This document shows, piece by piece, positions 27,777-59,291 of a stretch of DNA of 64,000 nucleotides. The stretch is taken from contig NC_091096.1 in assembly GCF_024713975.1 (NCBI RefSeq), positions 18,698,458-18,762,457 of the forward strand, in the 5' to 3' direction. Both the position numbers and the translations under genes were made by a program. Origin of the DNA: Paralichthys olivaceus (Eukaryota > Chordata > Actinopteri > Pleuronectiformes > Paralichthyidae). The notes beneath the pieces were generated by a model. The model was not told the DNA's origin, searched no databases, and saw only the letters and a program-made list of their open reading frames with translations. The stretch's first letter is position 1, and each line of letters begins with the position of its first letter.

Positions 27777-28892
27777 TATACTCAGCAAAAAAAGAAACGT
27801 CCTCTGACTTTCAACAGTTTTTACTTTCAGTAAACTTAATGTGTGTAAATATTTGTATGAACACTAAAAGAGTCAACACCTTAAGGCATAAACTAAAAAT
27901 GTTTCACAGACATGTGACTAACAGAAATAGAATAATGTGTCCCTGAATGAAGGGAGGCTCAAAATCAAAAGTACCAGTCAGTATCTGGTGTGGCCACCAG
28001 CTGCTTGAAGTACTGCAGTGCATCTCCTCCTCATGGACTGGACAAGATTTGTCAGTTCTTGCTGTGAGATGTTACCCCACTCTTCCACCAAGGCACTTGC
28101 AAGTTCCTGGACATTTCTGGGGGGAATGGCCCTAGCCCTCACCCTGCAAAACCGTGACTCATCAGTGAAGAGCACTTTTTGCCACTCCTGTCTGGTCCAG
28201 CGAAGGTGGGTTTGTGCCCATAGGCGGCGTTGTTGCTGGTGATGTCTAAGGACCTGCCTTACAACAGGCCTACAAGCCCTCAGTCCAGCCTCTCTCAGCC
28301 TATTGCGGACAGTCTGAGCACTGATGGAGGGATTGTGTGTCCCTGGTGTGACTCGTGCAGTTGTTGTGGCCATCCTGTACCTGTCACGCAGGTGTGATAT
28401 TCGGATGTACCGATCCTGTGCAGGTGTTGTTACACGTGGTCTTCCACTGCGAGGATGATCAGCTGTCCTTCCTGTCTCCCTGTAGCGCTGTCTTAGACGT
28501 CTCACAGTGCGGACATGGCAATTTATTGCCCTGGCCACATCAGCAGTCCTCATGCCTCCCTGCAGCATGCCTAATGCACGTTCACGCAGATGAGCAGGGA
28601 CCCTGGGCATTTGTCTCTGGGTGTTTTTCACAGTCGGTAGACAAGTCTCTTTAGTGTCCTGCGTTTTTAGAACTGTGACCTTAAATCCCTACTCTCTGTA
28701 AGCTGTTAAGGTCTTAACGACCATTCCACAGGTGCATGTTAATTCATTGATTATGGTTAATTGAACATGCATGGAAAACATTGTTTGAACCCTTTACAAT
28801 GAAGATCTGTAAAGTTATTTGGGTTTTTACAACATTATTGTTGAAATACACAGTCCTGAAAAAGGGACGTTTCTTTTTTTGCTGAGTTTATA
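27777..28892 (-). mobile_element. Internally deleted Tc1/mariner transposon
   Basis: Terminal inverted repeats CTCAGCAAAAAAAGAAACGT at 27781 and its complement ending at 28886 are flanked by TA-rich target sequence. The copy is about 1.1 kb; intact fish relatives are about 1.5 kb. Only the terminal repeats and the first and last parts of the transposase remain. It lies between trpm6 and c9orf40. Confidence 0.93.
27978..28631 (-). CDS. Tc1-family transposase, catalytic core deleted
   Basis: Uninterrupted 217-codon frame inside the Tc1 copy. Residues 1 to about 115 are the paired-type helix-turn-helix DNA-binding region (ERALGMLQGGMRTADVARAI, then RRLRQRYRETGR) with a GRPRV hook. The first catalytic aspartate is present in VLFTDESRF at about residue 157. 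Directly after it the frame jumps to RVRARAIPPRNVQELA, the C-terminal part, so the second D and the E of the DDE triad are missing. The deletion is in frame. It cannot be a transposase, though the DNA-binding part could still be made if it is transcribed. Confidence 0.85.
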   Translation of the reverse strand: MKNTQRQMPRVPAHLRERALGMLQGGMRTADVARAINCHVRTVRRLRQRYRETGRTADHPRSGRPRVTTPAQDRYIRISHLRDRYRMATTTARVTPGTHNPSISAQTVRNRLREAGLRACRPVVRQVLRHHQQQRRLWAQTHLRWTRQEWQKVLFTDESRFCRVRARAIPPRNVQELASALVEEWGNISQQELTNLVQSMRRRCTAVLQAAGGHTRY

Positions 28893-38861: not shown

Positions 38862-39200
38862 ATGTCACAGAGCAACACAGAGCAAATGGACGGCTTCACA
38901 ACTGAGAATATTATGGAGATGGAGATGGACGACAAGGAGTTGTTGGACAGTATCTGGGCAGTGGTCCACAAAGTGTCAAAGGACACAAATACCTGTCCAC
39001 TTCCTCAAGATGTCCCTGCTCAGGAGTGGCATGACTTATTTAGCTGGAGTTGCTCTGATGAGGGCACCCCCCCTATAGAATCACATCGCAGCTTGGAGCA
39101 GCATCCTACTGAACCCCATGCTGAACTGAACGACCAGCAGCAAAGTGTCCTGCAGTCAGGACCACAGTTCAGCCACGCAGGGCCTCACAACCAGACACAG
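38862..39200 (+). CDS. Array 5' exon 1A
   Basis: The ATG at 38862 opens a 113-codon frame ending at a GTAAGG donor in phase 0. It is acidic, with EMEMDDKELLDSIW followed by QDVPAQEW, and has no known domain. Its end (QQSVLQSGPQFSHAGPHNQTQ) and at least 130 bases of the following intron are nearly identical to exon 1B, so the pair is a recent duplication. The insert WHDLFSW..LND is absent from 1B. Confidence 0.6.
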
Positions 39201-40545
39201 GTAAGGTACTAACTACAGGTTAGAGAGAGATTCAGAGGAACTTTATCAATACCTGTATCAAGAAAGATACTTATTAATGGAGGAGGGGGTAATTCATGAG
39301 TACTCAGAGTAGTGAACCTGACTGAGTATAGAGACTTATTATAATGGCCCAGTAAAGTATATGAGTTGCTTATGGACGAGGCAGTGATATGATCCTGTCA
39401 AAAAACTATAGAAGAGATTTTTTATTTGTATTTGAAAGAACAGTTACAAAGAAATCATGTTGACAGGGGATGTAAATCATAGTAAGAGTCCATATCTCCA
39501 TTTAACTCATTGGCTGATGGTTAATACAGAAGCAAAACCACAGTGAAAAAGTATCACAACAAAACAGCTTCTAATTAAAAGTATTAGATTCGTGTATAGT
39601 TTTATTTCATAATACATGATAATATTGTATCATTGATTTGTATTTATCAGCATGTAAGCTTGTTGCAGTGTCTCAAACCCAGTTTCTTGTCAATGTCACA
39701 GGAGAACAACAATGAAAGAGATGGTTACAGATCTCAGAATATTATTAACCTGAGGGAAGAATTTGACCTTACTGAGGAGGAGCAGAATGACAAAGAGGTG
39801 CAAGACATTGTCTGCTTGGTGTTCAACAAACTGTTAAGGGACACAAACAACCATCCACCTCCTCAAAATGTCCCTGCTCAGGAGCAGCAAAGTGTCCTGC
39901 AGTCAGGCCCACAGTTCAGCCAGGCAGGGCCTCACAACCAGACACAGGTAAGGTACTAACTACAGGTTAGAGAGAGATTCAGAGGAACTTTATCAATACC
40001 TGTATCAAGAAAGATACTTATTAATGGAGGAGGGGGTAATTCATGAGTACTCAGAGTAGTGAACCTGCCTGAGTATAGAGACGTTTACTTTGGTAGAAAC
40101 CTCCTGTTTGGCACGAAGAAATTCTTCATTCATTAAATTGTAAAAACTGTGCATGATTGATTTCTTCTGTGGTTGATTAAAGAATCAATGGTGTCAGTGA
40201 TAGTGCTGTGCTTTAGTCTTAGAGGGCAGGAGTTCTGGGAAACACCACAGAGCAACTACAGGTTACAGATATTATTCATCTTTGGTTCATCATGTTCAGG
40301 AGGTCAATATTAAGATCAGGACAGAGATTACACAAGGCTGGGTTAGGTATAAATATGTGTGGTGGTGGTTCTAACTCTCTGACACCAAGGGGACAGATGA
40401 CACAGAGGAAACAGGTTGTCTTATCTCTAATTTTGTGTCTGTTCTTGTCTCCAGTTCAACAATGTGCCAGCAGTGAAGCTGACAAAACACCTGGAGGTGA
40501 GGCTGGCTCCTATTGGATTATTGTAAGTATCACACACATGAATGT

Positions 40546-40579
<34 letters not shown>

Positions 40580-43500
40580 CTGAGCTACTGTTTGTATCTG
40601 TCTTCTAATGTGTCTGATTGTGTTTATGTAGCCATGGAAAGGTGATTTATGGCGCTCCAGGAGACAGAGTTCCTTCTCCTATGAACCACCGCCACTCACA
40701 GTAAGTCTGTCTGACTAGTTCACAGTCACTTGTCTGTCATGAATTTATATTTATTTGATTGAGATGCTTTCATGTTCTTTTCTTTCCTCACAGTTTTACA
40801 CATTGGTAATTCATGCTTTCTGTGTCTTTCATGTTTTTCCACAGAAAGAGAAAACGTGAGAGCCAGCAGGAGGATGAGATGCCGTATGTCAAGCTCTCAA
40901 AGACAGAACAGACACTAAGCGCTGTTGCTGAGCCAGAAACTCCTGACTGTGGAGCCCTTCACCCCAAATTTGAAAAGAAGGTATGTGTCTTTGCTCTGTA
41001 GGTTTGAGACTCTCAGTGTCACACAAACCTCATCCAGCTGTGTCTATGACCACACTTCTAAAACCTTTCTCTAACTATAATTCTTGACATCATGACACAT
41101 CTATATATCCAGATTTAACTTGTGCAAAACAAGAAAGGCACCAGTTCAGCATTGATATATGCATTAGGATATATACCAAATAGATATTAGAAAAATATAA
41201 AAACAAATAATTTACCAAAATAAAATTTAAATCGCATTTATAAAAATACTAAATATATATACATACAGATAGACATGAATTTATACTTCTAACCAAATAT
41301 ATTTATTCAAATATTTTAATGTCCTACTTTATTTATTGGCGAGTAGGTTTTAATAATGTGACTTTACTTTTACTTTGGTTAATATAAAGTTCTCTGTTAC
41401 ATTTCATTACTGGGTGAATAAGGAGTATTTCAATGGGCAGAGAAGAGACGGGGACTTTGATACTGATTATAAAGGCTCAGTATAGTGTCTGACTTGCTTA
41501 TGGATGAGACAGTGATACGATCCTGGATGAAAACTATTATAACTAACAGGTTGTGGTTCTAACTCCCTGACACCAAGGGGACAGATGACACAGAGGATGC
41601 AGGTTGTCTTATCTTTTATTTTGTGTCTGTTCTTGTCTCCAGTTCAACAATGTGCCAGCAGTGGAGCTGACGAAACACCTGGAGGTGAGGCTGGCTCCTA
41701 TTGGATTATTGTAAGTATCACACACATTAATGCAAACACACACACACACACCTCTGAGCCTCTGTTTGTATCTGTCTTCTAATGTGTCTGATTGTGTTTA
41801 TGTAGCCAAGGAAAGGTGATTTACGGGGCTCCAGGAGACAGAGTTCCTTCTCCTATGAACCACCGCCACTCACAGTAAGTCTGTCTGACTAGTTCACAGT
41901 CACCTTGTCTGTCATGAATTTATATTTATTTGATTGAGATGCTTTCATGTTCTTTTCTTTCCTCACAGTTTTACACATTGGTAATTCATGCTTTCTGTGT
42001 CTTTCATGTTTTTCCACAGAAAGAGAAAACGTGAGAGCCAGCAGGAGGATGAGATGCCGTATGTCAAGCTCTCAAAGAAGGAACAGGCAATCAACGCTGT
42101 TGCTGAGCCAGAAACTCCTGACTGTGGAGCCCTTCACCCCAAATTTGAAAAGACGGTATGTGTCTTTGCTCTGTAGGTTTGAGACTCTCAGTGTCACACA
42201 AACCTCATCCAGCTGTGTCTATGACCACACTTCTAAAACCTTTCTCTAACTATAATTCTTGACATCATGACACATCTATATATCCAGATTTAACTTGTGC
42301 AAAACAAGAAAGACACCAGTTCAGCATTGATATATGCATTATGATATATACCAAATAGATATTAGAAAAATATAAAAACAAATAATTTACCAAAATAAAA
42401 TTTAAATCGCATTTATAAAAATACTATATATATATACATACAGATAAACATGCATTTATACTTCTGACCAAATATATTTATTCAAATATTTTAATGTCCT
42501 ACTTTACTTTTTGGCGAGTAGGTTTTAATAATGTGACTTTACTTTTACTTTGGTTAATATAAAGTTCTCTGTTACATTTCATTACTGGGTGAATAAGGAG
42601 TATTTCAATGGGCAGAGAAGAGACGGGGACTTTGATACTGATTATAAAGGCTCAGTATAGTGTCTGACTTGCTTATGGATGAGGCAGTGATACGATCCTG
42701 GATGAAAACTATTATAACTAACAGGTTGTGGTTCTAACTCCCTGACACCAAGGGGACAGATGACACAGAGGATGCAGTTTGTCTTATCTCTAATTTTGTG
42801 TCTGTTCTTGTCTCCAGTTAAACAATGTGCCAGCAGTGACGAAACACCTGGAGGTGAGGCTGGCTCCTATTGGATTATTGTAAGTATCACACACATTAAT
42901 GCAAACACACACACACACACACCTCTGAGCCTTTGTTTGTATCTGTCTTCTAATGTGTCTGATTGTGTTTATGTAGCCATGGAAAGGTGATTTACGGCGC
43001 TCCAGGAGACAGAGTTCCTTCTCCTATGAACCACCGCCACTCACAGTAAGTCTGTCTGACTAGTTCACAGTCACCTTGTCTGTCATGAATTTATATTTAT
43101 TTGATTGAGATGCTTTCATGTTCTTTTCTTTCCTCACAGTTTTACACATTGGTAATTCATGCTTTCTGTGTCTTTCATGTTTTTCCACAGAAAGAGAAAA
43201 CTTGAGAGCCAGCAGGAGGATGAGATGCCTTATTCCAAGCTCTCAAAGAAGGAACAGGCACTCAACGCTGTTTCTGAGCTTGAAACTCCTGACTGTGGAG
43301 CCCTTCACCCCGAATTTGAAAAGAAGGTATGTGTCTTTGCTCTGTAGGTTTGAGACTCTCAGTGTCACACAAACCTCATCCAGCTGTGTCTATGACCACA
43401 CTTCTAAAACCTTTCTCTAACTATAATTCTTGACATCATGACACATCTATATATCCAGATTTAACTTGTGCAAAACAAGAAAGGCACCAGTTCAGCATTG

Positions 43501-44995
43501 ATATATGCATTATGATATATACCAAATAGATATTAGAAAAATATAAAAACAAATAATTTACCAAAATAAAATTTAAATCGCATTTATAAAAATACTATAT
43601 ATATATACATACAGATAAACATGCATTTATACTTCTGACCAAATATATTTATTCAAATATTTTAATGTCCTACTTTACTTATTGGCGAGTAGGTTTTAAT
43701 AATGTGACTTTACTTTTACTTTGGTTAATATAAAGTTCTCTGTTACATTTCATTACTGGGTGAATAAGGAGTATTTCAATGGGCAGAGAAGAGACGGGGA
43801 CTTTGATACTGATTATAAAGGCTCAGTATAGTGTCTGACTTGCTTATGGATGAGACAGTGATACGATCCTGGATGAAAACTATTATAACTAACAGGTTGT
43901 GGTTCTAACTCCCTGACACCAAGGGGACAGATGACACAGAGGATGCAGTTTGTCTTATCTTTTATTTTGTGTCTGTTCTTGTTTCCAGTTAAACAATGTG
44001 CCAGCAGTGACGAAACACCTGGAGGTGAGGCTGGCTCCTATTGGATTATTGTAAGTATCACACACATTAATGCAAACAAACCTCTGAGCCTCTGTTTGTA
44101 TCTGTCTTCTAATGTGTCTGATTGTGTTTATGTAGCCATGGAAAGGTGATTTACGGGGCTCCAGGAGACAGAGTTCCTTCTCCTATGAACCACCGCCACT
44201 CACAGTAAGTCTGTCTGACTAGTTCACAGTCACCTTGTCTGTCATGAATTTATATTTATTTGATTAGGATGCTTTCATATTCTTTTCTTTCCTCACAGTT
44301 TTACACATTGGTAATTCATGCTTTCTGTGTTTTTCATGTTTTTCCACAGGAAAAGAAAACGTGAGAGCCAGGAGGAGCTTGAAACTCCTGACTGTGTAGC
44401 CGTCAACACCCTCATGGAAAAGAGGGTATGTGTCTTTGCTCTGTAGGTCTGAGACTCAGTGTCATGCAAACTTCATCAGACAGTGTCTGAGACCACACTT
44501 CTAAAACCTTCCACTATAATTCTTGACATGATAGTAAGGAGATTTTACTTATTTTCACTTTACAAGAGAACAAATCTAAATTCACTACGGGAGGTGTCAA
44601 TACAGGACTTGTGTCTACTCATGCAGATCTGTGTGGATTATGCCTATTTGTGAACTGGTCAGCCACATGTTGTGTGTTGTTTGCACTGACAGCATGTTGT
44701 TGTGTCTTCACAGCGGAGGTAGCTGTCAGAGGACAAGCAGGAGAAATATAATCATGACGTAAAGAGGCTGAGGCAGCTTCACAACCACATCTACCCAGAT
44801 TGGTCAGCAAAGGAAAATGATGTATGTACACTGCTCACATACAACTCACGCATGTTCACATCATTACACTAAATGGTGCAACACGGCCACTGCAAGGAGT
44901 TTTTATCAGCTGATATGAGATGGAACGTCTGAAGTGTTTGTTTTTGTGTACAGGGCCAAAAGTGGAAAAGGATCAGGAAGAGGCTCCAGAGATGA
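38862..44995 (+). CDS. Tandem-exon gene with a diverged TCF/LEF-type HMG box
   Basis: No named gene was recognised. Two related 5' exons, 38862-39200 (113 codons) and 39693-39947 (85 codons), both start MSQ and end HNQTQ at phase 0. Four repeat units follow, each with exon a (F/LNNVPAV..), exon b (GKVIYGAPGDRVPSP) and exon d (RKRESQQEDEMPYVK..). Then come one exon at 44723-44821 (LSEDKQEKYNHDV..LHNHIYPDWSAKEND) and a last exon at 44954-44995 ending in a basic tail and TGA. Exon d aligns with the first half of a TCF/LEF HMG box from the KEQ/KEM motif onward, without the PLNAFMLYM wedge. Exon 44723 aligns with the second half ([25 protein letters not shown]). All units together would give roughly 580 aa with four internal repeats. 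It could be one modular gene, several short genes, or a decaying family. Confidence 0.55.
39693..39947 (+). CDS. Array 5' exon 1B (duplicate of 1A)
   Basis: The ATG at 39693 gives 85 codons to a GTAAGG donor, phase 0. The ATGTCACAG context also works as an acceptor (cag before GAGAACAAC), so the exon could be either an alternative first exon or an internal exon after 1A. Both uses keep the frame. It has the acidic stretch DLTEEEQNDKEVQDIV, then LLRDTNN.PPPQNVPAQE, matching the exon 1A pattern. Confidence 0.55.
40455..40980 (+). CDS. Array unit 1, exons a-b-d
   Basis: Exons 40455-40522, 40632-40700 and 40845-40980 are 68+69+136 nt, or 91 codons, phase 0 in and phase 0 out. Donors are GTAAGT, GTAAGT and GTATGT. 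A 12-nt segment between b and d (40789-40808) is bounded by splice-like sites. Exon d ends LSKTEQTLSAVAEPETPDCGALHPKFEKK. A CA microsatellite lies in the a-b intron. Confidence 0.5.
41643..42155 (+). CDS. Array unit 2, exons a-b-d
   Basis: Exons 41643-41710, 41806-41874 and 42020-42155 have the same sizes and phases as unit 1. Exon d differs from unit 1 at seven bases by eye, all changing amino acids (LSKKEQAINAVAE; ends EKT). Confidence 0.5.
42818..43326 (+). CDS. Array unit 3, exons a-b-d
   Basis: Exons 42818-42879, 42977-43045 and 43191-43326. Exon a is six bases shorter than in units 1-2, an in-frame loss of two codons shared with unit 4. Exon d carries ten base changes from unit 2 (RKLES, PYSKLS, AVSELETP, HPEFEKK). 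Confidence 0.5.
43989..44425 (+). CDS. Array unit 4, exons a-b and shortened d
   Basis: Exons 43989-44050, 44136-44204 and 44350-44425. Exon d is 60 bases shorter, an exact loss of 20 codons. It reads RKRESQEELETPDCVAVNTLMEKR, where CVAVNTLMEKR is closer to a true HMG helix 2 (SAAINQILGRRW) than the other units. It is the unit nearest the second-half exon and may keep the ancestral junction. Confidence 0.5.
44723..44995 (+). CDS. HMG-box second half and basic tail of the array gene
   Basis: Exon 44723-44821 (33 codons, phase 0) and final exon 44954-44995. LSEDKQEKYNHDVKRLRQLH followed by IYPDWSAKEND aligns well with the TCF/LEF HMG box helix 3, and GQKWKRIRKRLQR with its KKKKRKR tail. Only one copy of this half exists, against four of the first half. 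Using the earlier acceptor at 44713 would add CGG AGG TAG, an in-frame stop where TCF/LEF proteins have RRW. Confidence 0.6.
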
Positions 44996-46609
44996 CTGAG
45001 GGTACGTTAATAATCATGTGGATAAGTGGCCACATTGCATATATCTAACTTTTGAAATTAAGTTGCATTAATCATTGACTATTTGTACATTTAGTAATAA
45101 TGAATATCAAACATAAAAAACAAACGATAAGGTTCAAAAGCTTCTTTTATCTAAAACCTATTAGAAGAGGTCAGAACTTGTCAGAAACGTATTTTTTCTT
45201 GTCCTGTTTGATCATAGTGTTAAAAGTATTAACCAATACAAGTTTGAGAAGTAGCATGAAAGTATTTTCATAAAGTGTCTCAGACCTGATCAATTTCTTT
45301 CACTTCTCTCCAGGAAGCACCTTCGCCACTGCATGATGACATGTCCATGGGACATATCTAACTGAGCAGTTTGATCCCTCCTCTCCCCACTGCACATATT
45401 CCCCTGATGTCTCCTCCTATTTTTGTACCTTTTTTTTTTGAGAACTTTATTTATATTCATTTTCCAGGTTACAGAACAGTGAACATATGACAACAAATCG
45501 GAGCTGCTCTGCCTCTCTGGAACTCCCACAATCCTGATATTATTCCTCCTTGCTCTCGCTTCCAAGTCCTCACATTTATTTTTTAATGACTCCGACAGCG
45601 TCTGGAGTTGTCTGACCTCGCGTTGTAACGTGACGATATCGTCTGCGACAGGCTCTTCCCCATTTTGGACGTGGCTCTTTAGCAATTGAGCTCTGGTAGG
45701 ATTGCAGTTCAGTTTTTACTGTGTTTATGTCTCCTCGGAGCCCCGCCATCTCTTTCTTCAGCATCTCTCTGATCTCCAGCTTGATAATACACCCGATGTC
45801 CTCACGCAGCCACGCAAGTAACTTCCGCCTGAAAGTTTCCGCGGCTAGTACTGAGGCCATGTCTGGGTCAACACTCCTGCAAGGTGATGTGCCAGAGGCG
45901 CTGGGCCTCAGTAAAGTTGGGGCGGTGTTGCTGCTTTTTTGTCACATTTTCTCACACAGATGTTTGCAGAAATGTCTAACTAAACGTTAATAAATAAAAG
46001 AAACAACAGTTTTCTCCGATAAGTGCTATTTGAATGTTTTTTTACAAAAAGGTTCTGGAGAGCCTCGACACACACACACGTAACTCCTTAGCCTGCTCAC
46101 TAGTGCCTCCATTTTTGTACCTTTTAATTATAATATCGTATATTTATTTTTACAAAAGATCCCTTTTGTCTAATCCTGTTCTCTCCTTCTCTCCTCCCCC
46201 TTTGTATAGACTGCCCGTCGCTAATGGAGCGAACCCTGCAAGCTAGTTCAGGCAGCCAACTTGAGCTGTGCTGCTCCTTTCACTGATCCACCGTGCTGCC
46301 CGCTGAGTTACATAAAAACAACCACATTCATGTTTTTCTGACTGTGATGGCTTTGATGAGATACTGGAGAACAGACTTCAAAATGTTCAAAATGTACAAT
46401 GGTCTCTGAAATTATTGTATTTGCTGAAAAATAATTAAAATACCTGTGGATAATCTCATGTCCCTGTATTTCTTCATTCAAATACTATATAGAGACAAAC
46501 ACTCACAAACAAAAGTAATTAAAGACAGACACAGATTGAAGTTTTTATCTGTTTGTTTTATACATGATGCAGCAGCAGTGCTTGAGTGAACACAAGTGTT
46601 TCATCTTCA
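44996..46609. other. Array gene 3' flank
   Basis: No exon is supported apart from the retroelement described separately. Sequence on both sides of that element reads as one continuous 3' flank. A possible polyadenylation signal ATTAAA lies at 46434-46439. Confidence 0.45.
45434..46110 (-). mobile_element. Short LINE-derived retroelement with target-site duplication
   Basis: On the minus strand it runs from about 46110 to an AATAAA plus A-tail at about 45460-45430. It is flanked by identical 15-bp copies of ATTTTTGTACCTTTT at 45419-45433 and 46111-46125, the mark of target-primed reverse transcription. It encodes the first part of an L1-type ORF1: start MASVLAAETFRRKLLAWLRE at 45860, a coiled coil, then CEDLEARARRNNIRIVGVPE. 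One frameshift lies near 45670. After that the sequence jumps straight to the 3' end, so the rest of ORF1 and all of ORF2 are absent. It lies in the 3' flank of the array gene. Confidence 0.85.
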
Positions 46610-48348
46610 TCATATGTTTGGGTTGATAATCTTGCCAACGAAGAGGGTGTCTTCTGTGACACGGTCAGTGATGACAACCATAAACGGACGATTGAACATC
46701 AGGATAGGGGTGTGGTGGAAAGACATGGGCATTATTTTGATGCCTGTAGCAGCGGTAGCAGTGGCTCCGACTTCGTCCACATCCAGGGTGGCTTTGTGCA
46801 CAACCTTCATGGGGTAGAATAGAGGCAGAGTGAGATAGCAGGTGGATGAAATGCTGGGGAAAAAAATGAATGCAATAACATACAGTATACTCTCTGCCCT
46901 GACCTCTGATACTACCAGTTTTTTCCCCACTGCGATGCCACTCAGATCTGCATGTTCATTGAACATGTCCGTCATTCCCATTTCAATCAACACGTCATTC
47001 AGCATGTAGGAAGTCTTGATGGAGAACTTTGGAACATGTATGTTATATCTCCTAAAATAATAGCAAATAGACAAACATACAGTGATTGATCTGACTGTGA
47101 AAATTGATCAGAAGGACAAAAACACAAAAATGTAGGATGACTTTAGGATGAGTTCTCCCAACCTGGACTTCATCCACTTCAGCCATTTGGTGACAAATCC
47201 TGGGCAGATGGCCTTCTCCAGTGTTGCCATATCGTCAGGCAACAGCAGCAGCATGGAGGAGGAGCTGTTGAAGGGAAGGTGGAGGACTGTTGTGTTGATG
47301 TTTTGGTCGTGATAGATGTCTACATCCTCCTTCATATTCATCATCTCAACTGGAACCTGGGAAGTTACAGTTTTAAACATGAAGCATCCAATAATTTGAA
47401 ATATCCAGTAGATATGTGACTCATGTCCATTCAGAATAAACTTTAAACCTTGGTATTCTCATCCACCATGAACTCATCCTTCTTGGTCAGCTCAGGATTA
47501 AATGAAGTGTCCCAGTTTCCTGTTTGATGAGGAGAAATAAATCACAGTTTACGACAGATATGTCAGGTTGTGAATTCAGAAATACAGAGGCTGTGTCTCA
47601 GTTCAGGGGCCGCATGCTTCGGAAGCTGCATTTTTAGAATAATTATGTCCCAAAAAGGACATCGACCGCTGAATTGAGACATAACTAGGGACTAACCAGA
47701 TATTGTTTAATGTGACTTTTTACCTTTAAAGTAGATGTAACTGATGAGAAACATGATTGTGTCTGCATTCAGGTTGTCCACCAGGTTGTCTATCTTCCCG
47801 TTAGTCTTCTCGGCCACATAGCGGTTGATGGTATTGCTACTTTCTACGGTGTTGGTAAAGTTAACATTAAACCCTTCTGTGAAGTAGGACTTGTTCAAAA
47901 CATCCAGGAATTCCGGATGTGGTGTGAAGTCGTGATCCACAAACAAAGCAGTGCCTTCGTTGGTGTCTTTTTGAGACATCTTGTTTGCCCGGTCCAGGAG
48001 TGCGTGGAATGCCTCATCCACATTTGCCTGTGTCAGCTCGGAGCTGTTGAAACCCAGACCGCTGAAAAGCTGCTGATGGGTCTCCCCCCGCGCTCCTACA
48101 GACAAGGCCGCCAGTGCCACAGACACACTCTTTGGCGAGAAGAAGATGTTCTTGCCTTGGGAGTCAGTGTGAGCAGCCAGCTTCCTGTACAGATGGTAGG
48201 TAAACTCTTTGTTTGCTGAGGACACCAGCGAGAGGCTGTTGAGAGCAGTGGCTTGGTGTGTATGATCTTCGTCAGTATCATGGCGATCGCTTCTTCCCAC
48301 GCAGACCAGTGCTGATAAGATCCCGATACACAAGGCTGCACGCATCAT
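46610..48348 (-). CDS. Secreted serpin, alpha-1-antitrypsin type
   Basis: Serine protease inhibitor acting outside the cell by trapping proteases. Five coding exons: 47724-48348, 47449-47519, 47163-47356, 46904-47051 and 46610-46804, giving 410 aa. A hydrophobic signal peptide is at the N terminus (ALCIGILSALVCVG). Serpin motifs: NIFFSPKSVSVALAALSVGA, TINRYVAEKTNGKI, ISYIYFKG. The reactive loop has the inhibitory hinge starting at Glu357 (P17), EVGATATAAT, and a Met373-Ser374 P1-P1' pair in IMPMSFHH. That is the same bond as in human alpha-1-antitrypsin, which suggests an elastase-like target. The exon pattern, with one long first coding exon, fits clade A. A non-coding exon probably ends at 48929 (donor GTAAGT). 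Confidence 0.9.
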
Positions 48349-49468
48349 GATGAACTATGAGGAAGGTGCACCAGTAAAACACTGTTTATTCGGGTTACAT
48401 AATGTTTGCAGGAACAAACACTCAACAAACATGAGCTAAATATGTTGTGAGCATATCAGAGTTATTTTCTCAATCGTACTGTTATATTATGAGTTATGAG
48501 CTCCGACAAAAACACTATTTCTTCACAGTTTGAACAATTTTCTACAAGATTTCTGTATTTCTTCTGTTTTCTCTTCTCACTGCTTTGAAATGGGCAGAAG
48601 ATGCTAATTAAATCTAATTCTTAGATGTGATTATTTAATGTAATTGAAGAAATACTTAACATAAGAACATTTTTAAGGGCTATAATTTAGAATTCCAACA
48701 GGCATACAACAGCTCAATAATTTTGTAGGATAAGGTTGTTTTTTGTTGCATAAAATAAATCAAGTCAGGATTTATATTTATATCTATTTACACAGACAAC
48801 TGTGTTTCATCAAAAATCAAAGTGTACATCTCATCTCAAGCAGTTAAAACTGTTAATAAAACTGTATATAAAATTGTATGTGAAAAAGTGTGGTTAAAAT
48901 AAAGAATGTGAGTTTTCTAACCACTTACCTTCTTCTGGTAGCAGCTCACAGTAACTCTCTGTGCTGTCTGGACAGAGGGAGATGTCCCACATAAAACTGA
49001 GCAAAGCAGATGAACTTTGGCTTTGTGTATTCTCCGCTGTATTTGCTCTGTGTAATGATTACTGTCTTACCATGGCATCAAACTAAGACAGCACTGCTTG
49101 TGTCAAGTAGCCAGCATGTACAGAAATGTGTGATCAATAGAGTCTCTTGCCCATAGTGTGCACGTGACAGTAAAAACCAATTGAAGGTTTTTGTTTGTAA
49201 GAAGTGCTGATAAATGAAACAAACATTCCCCAAAAGCTGCACCAGATCCCATTTTTACTGTTAAACTTGAATCAACATTTACAAACTGACTGAATATAAA
49301 TATTTTCACCTTAAAGTTCATAGAAATTAGAACATGATCCTGGAATGGATCAGACGCTGCAAGTCTGAGACTCTAAAACATTTATAAATCCACATAATGA
49401 CATCATTGTTTCTCATAATGGAGCCATCTTTGTCCTTAGGTTGTGGAACCACGACAGCTGAGCAGCAT
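48349..49468. other. Serpin 5' region
   Basis: Holds the serpin 5' intron and a likely non-coding first exon ending at 48929 on the minus strand. Otherwise AT-rich with no further exon seen. The dusp26-like 3' UTR lies at the right edge. Confidence 0.4.
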
Positions 49469-50553
49469 TCAGGGATGCGTGCCAAACAGCTGACCATCTA
49501 GTTCGATGAGCTGTCTGAGGAATCCTCGATTAGGGCTCACACCACGTTTATCTTTCACAGCACAAATAGCCTCCACAAGCGTCAGGTTCTGCTTCAGCAT
49601 CAGGTACGCAAGGACCAGAGTGGCAGAGCGGCTCACCCCGACGTGACAGTGCACCAGCACTTTGTCTGAGAATCACAGAGACATTGCATCACAGCATTAT
49701 TTAAACAAACACTAAACTAAACTAAGTATGTTTTTTCTACTTCCCTACCTCCCCTGCTGAGAGCCCTGTGAATAAAGTCTGCTGCTGTGGCGAAGTTGAC
49801 ACTCATGTCAAAGCCACAGGAGTCATGAGCCTCTATGCCCTTGTATGTGATCTTCATGCCCCTGTAGATTCCTGGCTGTCCTCCACGCTTACTGTGAGCT
49901 GCATTCAGGATGTGTGTGATCTGATGCTTGGACAGATCAGCCGTGTTCTCTGCACTGTGCCTGAAAAACACACAACACTGTGCAATCACCGACAGTATCT
50001 CGCAATGAAGCAGGTGTTGCCTGGTGAAACATTTGTATGCAATGCATTTCAACATGATGGATTGATATTTGGAATCCAACATCAGATATGGGAGTTAGTG
50101 CGTAGCTGACACCTGAGACACACTTTCGTGCCCAGGCATCAGTGGAACCTCTCACATGATAGCTGTAGTTTATGCCGGTTCCCAATGTGGAATGCAGCAT
50201 CAGGGATCTTAACTTACACATCTGTATTAAATGATTTATGATCAGGTCAAAGCTGTCACATACACTTCAGTAATACTTGTGAAAAAAGGCTCACTCTTCT
50301 CTCTCATGAATAATATTTGGAAAGTTAAAAAGCCCTTTGCAGTCAGGCAAGAAAGAATTGATCGAGGTACTTACTGGTCACCAATGTAGAGCCTTGGCCA
50401 GACTTCATCTGCGTGACTCATAATGGCTTTGCCAGTAAACAAGAGTCTTTCCAACTCGACCACCGCAAGTCCAGGTGAGCTCAGGTCGATCTCCACTTTC
50501 CGAGGAGGAGGCTCATCATTCCAGGATGCAGGGAGTTTTGTTGTATAGGACAT
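49469..50553 (-). CDS. dusp26: Atypical dual-specificity phosphatase, DUSP26-like
   Basis: Cytosolic/nuclear phosphatase acting on phospho-Ser/Thr and phospho-Tyr. Three coding exons: 50375-50553, 49749-49960 and 49469-49665, giving 195 aa (human DUSP26 211). Family landmarks: [36 protein letters not shown], the general acid in EAHDSCGFD (Asp about 106), and the P-loop [19 protein letters not shown] with catalytic Cys137. NRGFLRQL is at the C terminus. DUSP26 fits better than DUSP13 or DUSP29, which lack ELERLLxTGK. Human DUSP26 is on 8p12, not far from BAG4/LSM1, which supports the call. Confidence 0.88.
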
Positions 50554-52745
50554 TTCTCTTTCCAGACTTCTGATGTGAAACTGAATGCAGCTCTATCGTT
50601 TCCAAATGAGTCCAATAAATACATGCAGAGTTTTTTTGTTTTTTTTTAAAGGGGAAAAACTCTTATGGCTTCACAGTGAGAGCTGAGCAAGTTCTCCACA
50701 ACCTCTAGAGCAGAATGACCGCCACAGGTGATTTTTAGTTCCAGACTTCCTTGCCTCAGATTTACTCACCACGGGGCGTCAGAAACGTGGTCAGGCCATT
50801 TGACCCCCACATTAAATCTAGCTTGTGTGCCTCGAGCCCTCAGAGGTCTGTGTTATGCTTTTGCATCAAAATAGCTGTCTATTTAAAGATCTGAATGTCA
50901 GCCTGCAGTTGCAGGGAGAGTGGACCTCAGCAACAGTTTCACCTGACCAACATATAACAATAATATATGATGTTTCTGGTTGTTCAAAACAGAAATATAT
51001 TGTTTATGGTACCACAATCCAGAGAGAGCAAAAAATAACAGCTAAAAAGATAAACTGTATACACAGCTAAGGGTTTTAAAGAAAAATTATGGCAGAGATA
51101 AAATACTGGAGTACTCAACTAATCAGGTATGTTTAGTGCTGCAAGCTGCACCCAAAGGTTTCGGTACAACTGAGTACAACCCCCAGAACAGGAACTTATT
51201 TTTTGGGGGGGGGGATTTACCCTGAACTTTATTTAGACCCTGGTCCCCTGCAGTGGAAACACAAGTTTCCTGGCTCCAGCGGAAAGTTTCTGGGGTGGAA
51301 TTTTACTCTGTTAACTTAACAAAGTGAGATCCTGTGGTAAAAATATATACATTTAATTATTTCAGTTTTTTCCTCACCTGTGATAACTTTGATATCCATC
51401 AGGCAAACATGCCCATCATGGGTTGGACACATGCATTACATCTGAGACTGTACAGTTGTGCTCCATCTAAACAGAGCAGCACATGGAAATCAACACATAT
51501 GACAGAAGTTTCTTTCATGCAAATCTTATCATCTGTTTTTATTTTTTTCTAATGATATAAAACCATCCCCTGAAATATGGCACTCTTTTTTTTTCTAAAT
51601 CAACACGGGAGGTATGATTGAGGAAAAAAAATACCAGTGCTACACAAGACAATGGATCGTGGTGCAAAGTTAAAGGATTTCATTGCTAGAGGAAACAGAA
51701 TGTAAAGCGCTTATCAGATTGCTGTGACTGAAATTGTCCTTTACACAAAGCAATACTAAGTACATAGTTTCCTTAACTGATTGAACACTTCTGAAAAAAT
51801 AAATCAATTTCTAAATCCTATGTATATAAGTGTTCAAAAGGGGGGGATAACACAATTCAACAGCGTTTCAAGTAATTCTTAATCATGTCCTTATGGATCT
51901 GCTATAACAATAGTGAAATACATGAGGTCTGATTCAACATCTGCATTTAGAAAGCAGTTTCATCCAAAACATGGATAAAATGGGGACAGTAATCTTCAGG
52001 GGCTTTTCAATAGCCTGCCACTCTCTACGTCCAATCATGAGCTCGGAGATGTCAGGACTGTATCAAGTGCTTATCTGACATTACAATGCATGTGGGGCTG
52101 GGAGCTGAAAGGAAAAGCATTGCACCTATTCCTGCAGACATGTGAAGGAGCAACTAAGCGTATGGACCCTATCAGGGGTAAGGACAATTTCATGCAAATG
52201 GTCTGAGAGACATAATGATGGACACAGCTGAGGAAGTGCAAGTGTTCAGGATCAGAATAAGACTGATCCAGAATCCTGAGGGACAGCATGATGATAATCT
52301 GACTCTGTATCACAGGTTAGCGAAAACTTACAGTTGCTATGTGGCACTGAATAAATCTATCCTCCAGTGACCCTGTCCTGCATTATGCTGACAAGGGCAT
52401 GACGTAAAAGATGAGCTGAGCAGAGCCGCAGGTTGTGTGGTCGCCACAGCCCCTCACTGAGGCTGAAAGTTTTCAGATATGTACAACCATAAGTCTGCAT
52501 TTCTACTACCCCCATGTCACCCATACCAGCATAATTAGGCTTGAAAAGTTTGATTCCATGTACTAGTAATAGTTCTTGGGTCCCTGCCATTTACTCCAGG
52601 CATTTCATATCATGATGGTGGGGGGAAAAGGCCTACAGATAACAGCTCAGAAGAACAAGACTAGACCTTCACTGTGTCCATGGAAGATCTGGAAGAAGGA
52701 AACAGCAAAACTTAGTGACCCACAAACCCAATAAATAAATCCGCT
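50554..52745. other. dusp26 5' side and bag4 3' UTR
   Basis: No exon seen. The left part is upstream of the dusp26-like gene; the right part, downstream of the bag4 stop, is its probable 3' UTR. AT-rich with short homopolymer runs. Open frames are unsupported. Confidence 0.45.
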
Positions 52746-55694
52746 TTAGAAGGCTTTCTTCTCTAGCTGGTCCAGAATGGCCTGGATCCTCTGTACAGCC
52801 TCCCTTCGGAATTGCCGGACGCTCTCCTGTCCCTGAGTCTCGACAGAGTCCAGCTCCAGCAGCTCTTTGGTCAGCAGTTCCTCCAGACACCGGTAACTCT
52901 TGTCTGTCTTTTTGCCGACAAACTCATCAACGTCTTCCTGAAGCAGCAGCACCCTGGCCATGACCTGCTGGACCTTAGCAAGGCCAGGGTTGTCGCTCAG
53001 GGGCTGAAGTCCAGCTGGGCCTGGAGCTGGAGCTTGTGAGGGTGGGGGGTCCCCTTGTGAGGGTTTAAGTTCCCCTCTCCCTGTTTTGTTGTACATTTGA
53101 GGAGGTGAACTTATTTCTGCAGGCTTTCCGTTGGGGGGATTCTGGGATGGGGTTGGCCTGGGTTTAGGTCCCACTTGTGGTGCACGCTGGTGCAGTTGGT
53201 CCTAACGCGACACAAAACAAAAGATTGTGCTTAAGAAATTTCATAATCCTCAAACTTTATAACTAAGGTTGCTTTCATGCATGCAGTCTGGACTATTTCC
53301 TGGAATTTTCCAGAGGGGATGTTTCTGAGCCCATGTGAGAATACAACAGGAAAATGTCATTGTTAGCAAGATCAGACGAGTCTCCATATTTATAGATAAT
53401 AGTATAAAGATCGCAACAAGTGTAATGTTTAATTTGACTTTATATAAATGTACAAAACATTATTCCACTCTATTTTATATCAGCCTCTCCTTCCATTTAA
53501 CTCAATTAACAAAACAAAAACATGACAGCCACAGTGAAAAAGCTGCAGACACAAACCTTGGGTTGGTATGGGGGCGGAGCGCCTGTTCCAGTCCCCGGCC
53601 ATGCTGGAGGATGTGGTGGACGGACGTGACTTCCATAGTGGTTTTGTGGAGGCTGCTGGCCTGGCTGCCATTGCTGCTGTGAGTGTCCATATGCACCAGA
53701 GTGTGCCCATGCGTCAGCCTGAGGATTGGGATGGAGAGACTGGCCTGTGGGATATGGGGAGTTTTGAGGCATTGCATGTCCACCTTCAGTATAGTGAGGG
53801 TACGGTCCAGGAGGATATCCAGGTGTCTGAGAGCAGAGACAGAACAGGTATGTAGTATTTTCAAAATGACTTTGTTTCCTCTAGGTGTAATTTTGGTTTG
53901 GAGGAAATAAACAAGCCAATTACTTTTTACCACATTAATTCGTCCACGGATACACAGTCAGAGAAACGTAATGTCACTTTTGGCACCTCCCTTGCTACTT
54001 GTGTTTAAATGAACTCACCCCTTGACAGTGTGGACCAGCATAGTGATGATGTTGGTGTTGAGCGTGGGGCTGCCCAGACGGCCCACTGCCCTGCTCTGCT
54101 GGACAGCCCTGGTTAGGATAAGGACTTGGAGCTGGTCTCTGAGGGTCAGCACAGTAGAAAGGGTTGGACGGGTGGAAACCACTTGTTGAATACTGACTCT
54201 GCTGTGGGCTGTAGACACCATGGCCGTTTGGATAACCTCCAGGCATCACCTAAATGAAAAGCATGTGAGGAGAGAATTAATAAAGACTGTACTATTCAGA
54301 CTATTGACCTGATTCTGAATAAGACATTATTTTGATGACTAGTCTAAGTCCCTATATCAAATATGCCTATTTGGACTTGGCTGTTTGCTTTGCCTATAGT
54401 GACCTGCAGTAATTGCGCCACAGCAAATAAAGAGCGACTGCAGGACTCAGCCTGCAGAACCTTGAACTGTAGTTTGAGTTTTCGTTCCTGATGTTGTGAA
54501 CATACTGTTGTTATGATGGACACTGTTACATGGATGAGTCCCAGCCTAAAATCCCATTAATGTTACAGAGCGTAGTCCATTCATGACTCATGCCTACATT
54601 ACTTGCTTCTCCTTGTTCACACTCAAAGGCAGGGCATGGGTCATCTCATCAGGTTGATGTTGCAAAATGCTTTGTGATTGAGACATAAATGATCTTTATC
54701 TATATACAGTCTATGTACAGTTTTGCCACTCACACACACATTCATACAAAATGCTGTTTACATGGCAGTGTCCCGTTCAAACTGTTGTCTTAATCAGGTT
54801 AATATGAGAACACTAGTAAATGTGTGTAGTGATGTAACAAGTCGAGCTGAGGGAAAGGTGAGGGCACTTAGGAGACTTAAGCTAATGCGTAGATGTATTC
54901 TAGGTTGGGTTACAGCATGAGCTTCACCTGTGGGTTGTACTGGGGCTGAACCTCTGATCCCGACGGATAGGTGTTTGCATAGTGTCCTGTGGAATGAGAC
55001 TGAGGATACCAGTAGTGGGATGGGTAGCCTGGGTACTGAGGAGCGTCCTGTGAACACAGAGCATCGCAGAGAGAGGGTTGGACTAGTTATTCAAAGAAGA
55101 GGACTGTTTAAAGCAGCAGGGATTCTATCTGATCTGTGTTTCCTGGTGCAAGCTGGCAAACAGGAAACTGTAAAACATTCACAAACTGAGTAAACAGTGG
55201 CACTGATTCATTCATGACTCGCTCAGGCAGTTTGGGCTAAAGCAGATAAAAACCCGTGCAGCTAACCACAGCGAGGGCCGTGTGGAACAACAGAGGGAAG
55301 ACAGAAGACAGCCCGCTGCTAAAACAAGCCGTGTGTGTTTTACAACCACCGAGACACTTGTCGGGCCATCAGCGCTGTTGTCACGTCAGGATAAACGTGA
55401 CAAACTCGGGCAACAGGGCAACGGCAACTATTATATAATGCCAGCTAGCTCCGTTAGCTGTCGGGCTAGCACGGACAAACACGGACAAACACGGAAGCTA
55501 GCTGGGTAAAGAAATGCATTTGTGTACAAACTCGGGTCATTTTTATTTGAATTAAACACAGCGATCACACCTTGGGGGGGTTATCTCGCCCGTGTCCTCT
55601 CACTCACCATTGTGTTATTCCAGTTATGGTTTCCCGAGTCACCAGTCGAGGGCCAGCCAGACTTCAGATCCGACTGCGTCTGATGATGATGCAT
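52746..55694 (-). CDS. bag4: BAG family molecular chaperone regulator 4
   Basis: Co-chaperone (silencer of death domains) that binds the Hsc70/Hsp70 ATPase domain and death receptors. Five coding exons: 55608-55694, 54928-55047, 54019-54249, 53557-53826 and 52746-53201, all phase 0 and totalling 387 aa (human 457). The N-terminal 300 residues are a disordered Pro/Gln/Tyr/His-rich region (YPSHYWYPQSHST, QHQHHHYAGPH). The C-terminal BAG domain reads VLLLQEDVDEFVGKKTDKSY, then LEELLTKELLELDSVET and VRQFRREAVQRIQAIL. The start begins MHHHQTQSD and lacks the glycine-rich N terminus of mammals. It is divergently paired with lsm1. Confidence 0.94.
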
Positions 55695-56488
55695 CGGCTA
55701 AGCGCGCTCCGTCCTGTCACCTGCCATAGCACAAACAAACCCTGACTCTTGTCACTTCTCTGCGCAGACTCTGGGTCCGACCTGTTCACACCGGCGGTGT
55801 TTTGTTCTCCACACGGGCGCCGATCGCTTGATTGCAATCAGGAAATGATTGAATGACGCCAGGAGCTCGGAAAACTAGCTGCCTTCTCTTTAAGGAGCCG
55901 CACGAGCCAGAGTGAGGAGGTCTCACTCTGTCGCTATTTTCACGGCACTGAAAACATCTGAGGAGTGAGAGGCGCCAGGTTGTGCTGCCATTTTGTTGCT
56001 CACACTGCACAGACAAAACATGATGCACTGACTTATTATACGTAGGTTATAAAGCGTGCGTGTGTAATGGTATAATTTTTGATGATTTATGACGACACAA
56101 GCAAGTTGCCTCGCTCTTCTGACGCGGTCACTGTCTCCTGTTCATAGATGATCTCTGGTGCCGCATGTGCGTCACTACATGCTAATAGCCAATAGGAAAA
56201 ACGTCGTTCATTTATAATATTTCCGCAATAAAAACTAATAATCTCGCGTTCTGAACTATTCTTCTTTTGTGTCACATCTATTAAGACGTTTATTTTCAAA
56301 ACGGGTTCAGTAAAAGTTCAGGAACAGGAAGTTTTTCCAGCGCGCACAGGGTTAAACGTGGACCGGAAGTGTATCCCAGGCTTCTATAAAGACACTTCCG
56401 GTGCTGTTGTTGAAAGAAACACACTTTGAAACATTCATGGCTTAAAGTCACACAGAGACACCACGACGCAGACAAACAGCAGCACAAG
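55695..56488. promoter_or_regulatory. Shared bag4/lsm1 bidirectional promoter region
   Basis: About 0.8 kb separates the two start codons. On the lsm1 side are two ETS-type sites in opposite orientation, ACCGGAAGT at 56362-56370 and ACTTCCGGT at 56394-56402, with a CTATAAAG element between them. On the bag4 side the sequence is GC-rich. Human BAG4 and LSM1 are also head to head. Confidence 0.65.
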
Positions 56489-59291
56489 ATGAACTACGTA
56501 CCGGGGACGGCCAGCCTCATAGACGACATCGACAGTGAGTAGCAGAGGAAGGAGGAACCAGAGCTGCTTCACTGAGGAAGTGGTTTCTGTGGCATCGTGT
56601 CTGACTCTGGATCAGCCGTGTGTCCATACTAATAATAAACATGTCTGTGTCCTGCAGAGAAGCACCTGGTGCTGCTCAGAGATGGGAGGACACTGATCGG
56701 GTTCCTTAGAAGCATTGATCAGTTTGGTACTTGTCGTTTTTTTTTATCTCCCACTTGTTTCTCCTCATCGCCAGAACACAAATCAGCTACACCTTCTACG
56801 TGTGCATCTGGTCATCACCATCTGATGTTTGGTTTTTTTGTGTCTTAAACTCATCTGTATTTCTCTTGTCTCCCGCAGCCAATTTAGTTTTCCACCAGAC
56901 AGTTGAGCGCATCCACGTGGGAAAGAAATTTGGTGACATCCCGAGAGGAATATTCATAGTTAGAGGAGAGAATGTGGTCCTGCTGGGAGAGATAGTAAGT
57001 GTGTCTGTCTATAGTTGTGTGCTCCAATTCTGGTCAAATACAATAACTGTGAGGACAAAGACTTGTTTTCTGGTTAGAATTAGGTGTAGGGTTAGGCATT
57101 TAGTTGTGATGGTTAGGATCTGGGGAATGCATGTCTGAGTGCCCTCACAACTATAGAGGCGTGTGTCTGTGTGTCCACAGCCTTCACTCAGGTGCTAATA
57201 TCAGACTCTAAACTCGAAGGTACAGTGTGTAGAATTTTGTGATATCTAGTGAACACCCCTCACCTCACCCTCTCCTTCCAAACATTAAAAAGAACCTTTG
57301 GTAGCCTTTAATTGTCATAAAAACTCAAAAGGTGTTTAGTTTGTCCAGTCTGGACTAATGTAAAAAACATGGCGGCCTCCATAGAGAGGGTCCCCTCGAT
57401 GTAAATATAAAGTATTTAAATATAAAGGGCCTTTTCTGGGGTAAAGAAAACTACTTTTCATACAATTTAGATGAAATAACTAGTGAAAACATCATGAGGA
57501 TTATTCTACATTAAGTTTCTGCCAATAGTTCCCTTTCACCGAAATCTTTCACACTGGACCTATAACAAAAATAATAAATAATCTGATGATTATCAACATG
57601 GACTGATATGAATAGATTTTTAAATAATTTTGGCCATATTGTCCAGCCATAGAATATGGTGAGTAATTACCTCTACTGTACTATCAGTCATGTTGTTGTC
57701 ATTCACAGGTCACAGTAAGTTCATAATACTGAGTCTTGAAGAGTCTTGAACGTGTGTTAAAGAGTGCACAGAAATTTTAAGTCCTACAATTATGCTTTTG
57801 ATTATACTTCTGATATTATTATTCCAATAGCTTGTTGGGTTAGGGGTTGGGTTAATGAACTCAGCTCTTTAACCAAAGTTAACTTTGATTCATATGTATT
57901 TTATGCATTTTACCAAAGGAGGTTATGTTTTCATCTGGATTTGTTTGTTAGGAGGATTACGCAAATACTACTCCACTGATTTCCAAGAAATGTTGTGGAG
58001 AGACAGGGCATAACCCAAGGGAGAGTCTATTATTTTTGATGCAGATCTGGATCAGGAGGCAGATCCAGGACTTTCATGGATGTTGATGGACACCATCAGG
58101 CATGTTTAGGGGACTGATATTCATGAGTGTGTAAAATTTGTTGCAGATCCAAATAAAAATTCACTTGATCCAAATAAAAAAAATGGACCTAGTGAATTAA
58201 AATTTGGTTTCATAAAGGAACTGTTGGGCCTTGGCAGAGGTAGGCTCTGCTTAGTGTCATTCTGCTGCAGTTAATGACTAGAATTACTGAGGAAAGCTCA
58301 TATGAGGTCTAATTAATTCCATCTTGAGTTTATCTATAAAATGCTGAACATATAGCACAGTTAAAGGTATGTGAAACCTATTGATTAACCACTTACACAC
58401 TCTCTCATCACAATAAAAACACAATTTAAGCCCATAGATTTGATTTGTGTCATATGTGCATGAATTGAAGCTGGCATGTTGCAGGCACATTTAAGTGACG
58501 GTGTAGAACCTTCAGCCAACACAAAACATGACTCGTAAACCAAGTAACTACATGTAACTGTAAACGTACACCATGCAGACACCAAGCAGCAGAGTATAGT
58601 ATTTAATGTTATGCAAGGATGAAATGCAAAGAAGTTGCAGGCATCAAAGAATGGGAGAATGTGATACACATGTGTAGCACAGACAAAGCATCAGTGCACT
58701 GCTCAGTGCTTCAGAGGATCTACTGGGCTTTTCAAGGGAATTGAGTCTGTAAGCAGGGAGAGCAGCGCAGGTTTGTTTTAAAATGACATAGTGAGATGTT
58801 GAATGATCAGGTCAAGAGTGACAAGTCTATATCCACAGGACACTATTTGAATACTGTATGTTGGAAAGGTCCTTGTGATAAAACCCCAAAAGGAAGTTTC
58901 CATGAGAATTTGAACAGGCCACAACACTTAGGTCACTACTAATACCATTACTGTGTCCTAAACAGTATAAATGAACAGCAGATCAACACATAAAACAGTT
59001 TGTGTACTACCTCACTAGATGTACCTCACATAATTAAGTGTATTTGTGGTTAATGTCCATAATATTTTGTGAGTTTGTTACAAGCCTTGAGGAGGTGTGA
59101 CATGGTCTGTGTCTCTGCAGGATGTGGATAAACCCTGCGACACAGTCCTGCAGCAGGTTTCCATCGAGGAGATTTTGGAGGAGCAGCGGTTGCAGCAACA
59201 AGCCAAACAGGAGACGGAGAAAGTCAAAATGCAGGTCCTGAAGGACCGAGGCCTTTCCGTACCCAAAGCTGACAACTTGGACGAATATTAA
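56489..59291 (+). CDS. lsm1: U6 snRNA-associated Sm-like protein LSm1
   Basis: Subunit of the cytoplasmic Lsm1-7 ring, which with Pat1 promotes mRNA decapping in P-bodies. Four exons: 56489-56534, 56658-56726, 56879-56994 and 59121-59291, giving 133 aa, the same as human. The Sm1 motif HLVLLRDGRTLIGFLRSIDQ and Sm2 motif FIVRGENVVLLGEI are present. The C-terminal helix has QVSIEEILEEQR, and the protein ends LDEY. MNYVPGTASLIDDID is nearly identical to human. Intron 3 (about 2.1 kb) carries two repeats. Confidence 0.98.
57213..57562 (-). mobile_element. MITE-like repeat, copy 2 (lsm1 intron 3)
   Basis: Opposite-orientation copy of the element at 35238-35613, with the same inverted ends (AGTGTGTAGAATTTTG at the left, 'cacactggacct' at the right) and interior phrase 'actagtgaaaacatca'. 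Differences between the copies indicate an old insertion. Confidence 0.75.
57910..58245 (+). repeat. Fish interspersed repeat family 2, copy 3 (lsm1 intron 3)
   Basis: The best preserved of three copies: 'aggaggttatgttttcatc', 'ttgttaggaggattacgcaa', 'tactccactgatttcc', 'tggatcaggaggcagatcca'. No coding frame. Confidence 0.6.

Follow-up and report, generated by a model that had tools for sequence, protein, structure and literature searches.

The exons at positions 38862-44995 of the window (the 64-kb stretch of DNA analysed here in full) raise the question of what a gene with a tandemly repeated front and an end resembling a TCF/LEF-type HMG box can be: a DNA-binding factor of that family, a derivative that works in some other way, or a gene that is falling apart. 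On the forward strand this interval holds a series of exons resembling a spliced gene, made up of two related 5' exons, four units each composed of exons a, b and d, and single exons e and f, as follows.

Exon e1, 38862-39200, forward strand: 113 codons, with an ATG start and a GT donor at its end
Exon e1', 39693-39947, forward strand: diverged copy of e1, either a first exon (ATG at 39693) or an internal exon from 39702
Unit 1, 40455-40980, forward strand: a 40455-40522, b 40632-40700, d 40845-40980; open, in phase, GT/AG intact
Unit 2, 41643-42155, forward strand: a 41643-41710, b 41806-41874, d 42020-42155; open, in phase, GT/AG intact
Unit 3, 42818-43326, forward strand: a 42818-42879 (6 nt shorter), b 42977-43045, d 43191-43326; open, in phase, GT/AG intact
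Unit 4, 43989-44425, forward strand: a 43989-44050, b 44136-44204, d 44350-44425 (60 nt shorter)
Exon e, 44714 or 44723 to 44821, forward strand: second half of a TCF/LEF-type HMG box
Exon f, 44954-44995, forward strand: basic tail with TGA at its end, in the position of the TCF/LEF nuclear-localisation exon

Exon layout and surroundings

This layout bears out the architecture sketched in an earlier note on the same DNA. The 5' exons described there as duplicated are 38% identical as protein (BLAST); the four tandem units follow one another at a spacing of about 1.17 kb (direct-repeat copies 1159-1188 nt apart), all open and in phase; and single copies of a second HMG half and a basic tail stand 3' of the array as exons e and f. 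Joined, units 1 to 4 measure 273, 273, 267 and 207 nt, each a multiple of three and all in one shared open frame, and the model has GT at 15 of 15 donors and AG at 15 of 15 acceptors. The frame joined from e1 to d4 comes to 1605 nt, or 535 codons, and every exon upstream of e is stop-free. Outside 38862-44995 the 64-kb window showed no further family member (tblastn with the joined protein and with single exons, E 0.27 or worse), and Rfam gave no matches at gathering scores over the window as a whole.

Each of the four units also contains an identical 12-nt stretch, TTTTACACATTG, that lies between AG and GT in the manner of a micro-exon (40794-40805, 41969-41980, 43140-43151 and 44299-44310); included between b and d, it would bring a TGA into units 1-3, and only unit 4, whose exon d begins with G, would remain open. 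Downstream of exon f, at 45419-46125, is an insert of about 0.68 kb flanked by ATTTTTGTACCTTTT, a direct repeat of 15 nt that occurs at 45419 and again at 46111; it has a T run at one end, minus-strand frames that appear coiled-coil by eye and no Pfam match, and it looks like a retroposon copy.

The flanks hold, by Pfam, a nuclear-receptor exon, TRPM exons, a carnosine N-methyltransferase, a serpin and a BAG-domain gene, together with an LSM match below cut-off, and this gene content indicates a vertebrate neighbourhood, evidently that of a bony fish. In order, the nuclear receptor, TRPM and carnosine N-methyltransferase lie at 2492-37489, and the serpin, BAG and LSM at 46613-57135; the succession joins genes that belong to separate human neighbourhoods, 9q21 and 8p11. 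The minus strand carries a 236-residue open frame with Tc-type transposase HTH domains (Pfam) at 27981-28688, and at 49720-50094 a weak dual-specificity phosphatase match (E 9.7e-5; 22.6 bits, missing the cut-off of 33.5).

Ancestry of the box and its amplification

A clear relationship with the LEF1 HMG box is evident at the 3' end of the series. Exons e and f together match this box (2lef) with an E of 6.8e-7 (phmmer against PDB chains), and the score of exon e alone was reached by none of 1000 shuffles. With d2 placed in front of e and f, LEF1 outscores all other PDB chains by a wide margin (2lef, E 6.2e-9, versus E 0.56 for SOX2), bearing out the TCF/LEF-like origin claimed in the note; d2 joined to e from 44714, with X at the stop described below, gives an ungapped LEF1 match of 74 residues, 28 of them identical (E 2.6e-10). 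A composite of the d3 front and the d4 back, picked after d4 had been seen, matches LEF1 with an E of 3.7e-12, obtained with a query that had R for L once, outside the aligned part; its other matches have E of 0.92 or worse. When exon d was shuffled, 1 of 500 trials for d1 came up to the observed score, and 0 of 500 each for d2, d3, d4 and the composite, which carried the true residue (L) in this control. Among 1656 window frames of at least 25 residues compared with the LEF1 box, only the frame starting at 44723 passes the HMMER inclusion threshold.

The ungapped alignment of exon d with the first half of TCF/LEF boxes, also proposed in the note, holds at the register set by the exon end, where the score against LEF1 was reached by 0 of 10000 shuffles for each of d1, d2 and d3 and by 16 of 10000 for d4; it is weaker when the register is left free (30, 1, 6 and 75 of 1000 shuffles for d1 to d4). 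On its own, exon d2, the only copy searched singly, has no PDB-chain match at E up to 10, and for exons a and b, taken from unit 2, no similarity to the LEF1 box could be detected (their scores were reached by 323 and 964 of 1000 shuffles). The exon at 44723 had been taken for the second HMG half; the match of e and f to 2lef upholds this, save that the box aligns best from 44714. Similarity at the level of the Pfam HMG_box profile (PF00505) was not obtained: exon d joined to e and f stays below the curated cut-off of 25.4 bits, both with d2 (12.8 bits, E 0.16) and with the d3/d4 composite (14.7 bits, E 0.044), and e and f alone, unit 2, and d4 with e and f have no listed match. With the generic profile below cut-off or absent, the resemblance is to TCF/LEF specifically, and a TCF/LEF ancestry of the box is supported at the level of sequence.

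The wedge methionine and the core aromatics of such a box have fared less well. LEF1 Y12, M13, W40 and Y52 are replaced by S, K, R and N in the joined exons and Y51 is kept, so that three of the four core aromatics are altered (Y12S, W40R, Y52N), as is the wedge methionine (M13K). In PMC10208975, LEF1 Y12, W40, Y51 and Y52 are described as forming a hydrophobic core, mutations of W40 and Y51 are reported to impair LEF1 binding, and TCF7L2 Y337S, at the position of LEF1 Y12, abolished DNA binding in EMSA. Since the fish box has Y12S, the equal of the Y337S change, along with further changes, the comparison argues strongly that HMG-type DNA binding has been lost, and loss of sequence-specific binding and of a Wnt response is predicted. 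In e1 and e1' no Pfam match of any kind, and so no beta-catenin-binding domain, was found at E up to 10, in a search whose HMMER filters drop most weak matches.

The DNA-wedging segment itself, reported as lost in the note, is indeed gone, its upstream part being absent from all d exons. In d1-d3 the segment before LYM is missing, presumably about seven residues going by the LEF1 sequence, and LYM is present as LSK; in d4 this loss is masked by a larger deletion. Because the absence is common to d1-d3, the wedge would have been lost before the amplification, and not while the exon was being multiplied as had been suggested. The phrase "fourfold amplification of half an HMG box" is likewise right about the repeat and too narrow about its extent, the copied block being 1.17 kb of three exons with their introns; and a fourfold first-half exon holds for d1-d3 only, the fourth d exon having lost most of its HMG-like part through a 60-nt deletion that removed 20 residues, including the KEQ..NAV stretch. 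When the 3' half of d4 is placed behind the front of d3, the LEF1 score rises from 40.9 to 48.4 bits, from which we infer that the gene originally ended in unit 4 followed by e and f, and that units 1-3 arose as copies.

Divergence within the array is uneven. Between units 1-3 the introns differ by 0.5-2.1% and exon d by 5-10%: for pairs 1-2, 1-3 and 2-3, exon d has 7, 13 and 10 mismatches in 136 bases, versus 13/807, 11/809 and 4/808 in the introns (Fisher p 0.017, 4e-6 and 2e-6). This first test omitted the 94 bases before exon a; with these included, the non-exon counts are 19/901, 16/903 and 7/902 (p 0.068, 2e-5 and 9e-6). The excess in exon d is significant in both tests for pairs 1-3 and 2-3, and for pair 1-2 it is not significant once the 94 bases are counted; exons a and b together are not raised in any unit pair (p 0.12-0.72). 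Synonymous versus nonsynonymous differences over sites in exon d are 2.0/27.3 vs 5.0/107.7, 4.0/27.3 vs 9.0/107.7 and 2.0/26.7 vs 8.0/108.3. Positive selection on exon d was considered and rejected, the rise at synonymous sites being no smaller than that at nonsynonymous sites, and since both classes are raised alike the pattern points to uneven gene conversion as a simpler account than selection on the protein.

At the 5' exons, e1 and e1' share a 200-nt patch of about 99% identity that extends from the end of the exon into the start of the intron, next to sequence of about 66% identity (BLAST); a near-identical patch beside far more diverged sequence is the pattern that conversion would leave. 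The intron after e1 also contains, at 39331-39409, a 79-nt piece of the inter-unit intron (about 81% identity), which suggests that an older duplication round preceded the present array.

The in-frame stop and the coding status of the gene

Exon e can be read from either of two acceptors. After acceptor 44713, that is from 44714, it begins with RR and has TAG as its third codon (44720-44722, as read from one assembly), 99 nt before the exon end; after acceptor 44722 it starts at 44723, skips the TAG and is open. Upstream of 44713, 11 of 16 bases are pyrimidines, versus 8 of 16 upstream of 44722, where the sequence is purine-rich; the ungapped alignment sets the exon start at LEF1 W40, and reading from 44714 instead of 44723 raises the LEF1 score of each of the five versions tested by 4.8-6.5 bits. 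By its pyrimidine content 44713 is the better acceptor and 44722, 9 nt downstream, the poorer one. The box is broken by an in-frame stop unless that poorer acceptor is used, and the GQKWKRIRK stretch of exon f, which aligns with the LEF1 tail, lies behind the TAG. As a general rule a stop 99 nt upstream of an exon junction is expected to bring about nonsense-mediated decay, which is therefore predicted for this transcript if f is spliced on.

Other features speak against decay, namely that all splice dinucleotides are intact and that the exons before e are stop-free. In neutral simulations, 2565 of 20000 runs stayed stop-free for e1, 2867 of 20000 for e1' and 4291 of 20000 for the units, and where exon copies differ in length, they do so by multiples of three; the open frames, taken with these lengths, mildly favour coding constraint, in the past if not at present. 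Substitution rates are less decisive: synonymous and nonsynonymous values are close for e1 and e1' (0.235 and 0.199), and for whole units they range from 0.082 vs 0.033 (units 1-2) to 0.051 vs 0.048 (units 2-3), so that some unit pairs appear to lean towards constraint. Present function is made less likely by the in-frame TAG of exon e, by the box having been lost and by a divergence of exon d that is nearly equal at synonymous and nonsynonymous sites.

On balance we favour, with reservations, the view that the locus is a lineage-specific TCF/LEF-derived gene that is no longer a DNA-binding HMG protein and is probably decaying. Its ancestor would have been a TCF/LEF gene of bony fish whose box first lost the first helix and the wedge; a 1.17-kb block comprising exons a, b and d with their introns would then have spread head to tail, through unequal exchange and gene conversion, until there were four units. 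The resulting protein, if any was made, could no longer have bound DNA as an HMG box, and with the better acceptor in use the TAG would cut the box and, were f spliced on, expose the message to nonsense-mediated decay. If the gene still works, its product would be a repeat protein in which four units of 69-91 residues carry basic motifs (KRKRES or KRKLES), and which would either end after the fourth unit or make use of the acceptor 9 nt downstream.

The latter route, by which acceptor 44722 skips the TAG, would yield a repeat protein of 581 residues that keeps the basic tail and, of the HMG box, a shortened remnant without the wedge, and such a protein might act in the nucleus without DNA contact of its own, for example by competing for TCF partners. 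Every exon of this model is open and in phase with its splice dinucleotides intact, the exon copies differ in length by multiples of three, and stop-free frames arise in only a minority of the neutral simulations; however, its acceptor follows a purine-rich stretch behind a better acceptor, its reading forfeits the 4.8-6.5 bits of LEF1 similarity, and neither 5' exon has a Pfam match that would supply a beta-catenin-binding domain, all of which makes a working gene of this kind rather unlikely in our judgement. Slightly less likely again, we think, is that a fish-lineage TCF/LEF derivative has traded its box for tandem repeats and functions as a repeat protein that does not bind DNA, the array still gaining units and exon d diverging faster than the introns.

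A working gene might instead stop at the TAG right after the fourth unit, its protein consisting of the 5' region and four repeats, with e and f as untranslated relics. The RR and TAG read after 44713, behind an entirely open upstream frame, fit such a truncation, but the position of the stop relative to the exon junction predicts by the same general rule that the message would be degraded, and exon d shows synonymous and nonsynonymous divergence that are indistinguishable; we regard this outcome as improbable. That the TCF/LEF similarity arose by chance in lysine- and glutamate-rich exons, the array belonging to an unrelated repeated gene, would account for HMG_box scores below cut-off or unlisted and for d2 finding no match alone; it is very hard to reconcile with an E of 6.8e-7 for e and f, with 0 of 1000 shuffles for e, with an ungapped match that extends over the splice junction under shuffle controls and with the presence of the TCF/LEF exon plan, and we give it little credence.

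Comparison with known TCF/LEF genes

Under the favoured reading of a derived and probably decaying gene, the locus is, judged by its sequence, a distant TCF/LEF relative in a fish genome, derived from that family without being one of its factors in function. Among the flanking genes, those with the BAG and LSM matches resemble BAG4 and LSM1, neighbours of FGFR1 in human. Teleosts have two TCF7L1 genes, whose neighbourhoods include fgfr1 paralogues (PMC9303524), and this correspondence with the BAG4/LSM1-like neighbours offers, by analogy, a lead to an origin from a tcf7l1 copy. A second lead is a relation to the two cichlid copies named "transcription factor 7-like 2-like", testis- or male-biased according to PMC4202336, whose likeness as extra fish TCF-like genes is by name only.

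Our literature search found no paper that describes this gene, and we make no claim wider than that search. The available text of the survey PMC9303524, which counts four to five TCF/LEF genes per genome in 17 of 19 gnathostomes and seven and eight in the other two, contains nothing like it. In collections not meant for fish, the unit 2 protein gave 5 pattern matches among viral contigs and unit 2 with e and f gave 22 among prokaryote genome contigs, with no confirmed relatives in either. The SOX family shares a weak second-half match only (E 0.56 to 2.6); LEF1 scores far higher, and the basic tail and the exon plan are TCF/LEF-like.

The closest counterparts are the vertebrate TCF/LEF genes (LEF1, TCF7, TCF7L1 and TCF7L2; exons IX-XI), in which exon X encodes the second HMG half and exon XI the nuclear localisation signal (PMC9303524); with TCF7L2 exons 10 and 11 as the reference for exon roles (PMC10208975), first half, second half and putative localisation signal fall in the successive exons d, e and f of the fish gene, matched by exon role, and the ungapped 74-residue match with its 28 identities gives the likeness to LEF1 itself. 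In contrast to these genes, the fish gene is without the first helix and wedge and has three of four core aromatics changed, carries tandem a-b-d units before the box and an in-frame stop within it, and has no beta-catenin-binding domain found in e1 or e1'. TCF/LEF proteins are strongly conserved Wnt effectors; a side branch that has shed its DNA-contacting part and multiplied its exons would, if our reading is true, be a transcription factor in the course of becoming something else or of falling apart, with the steps of that change still readable in its sequence.
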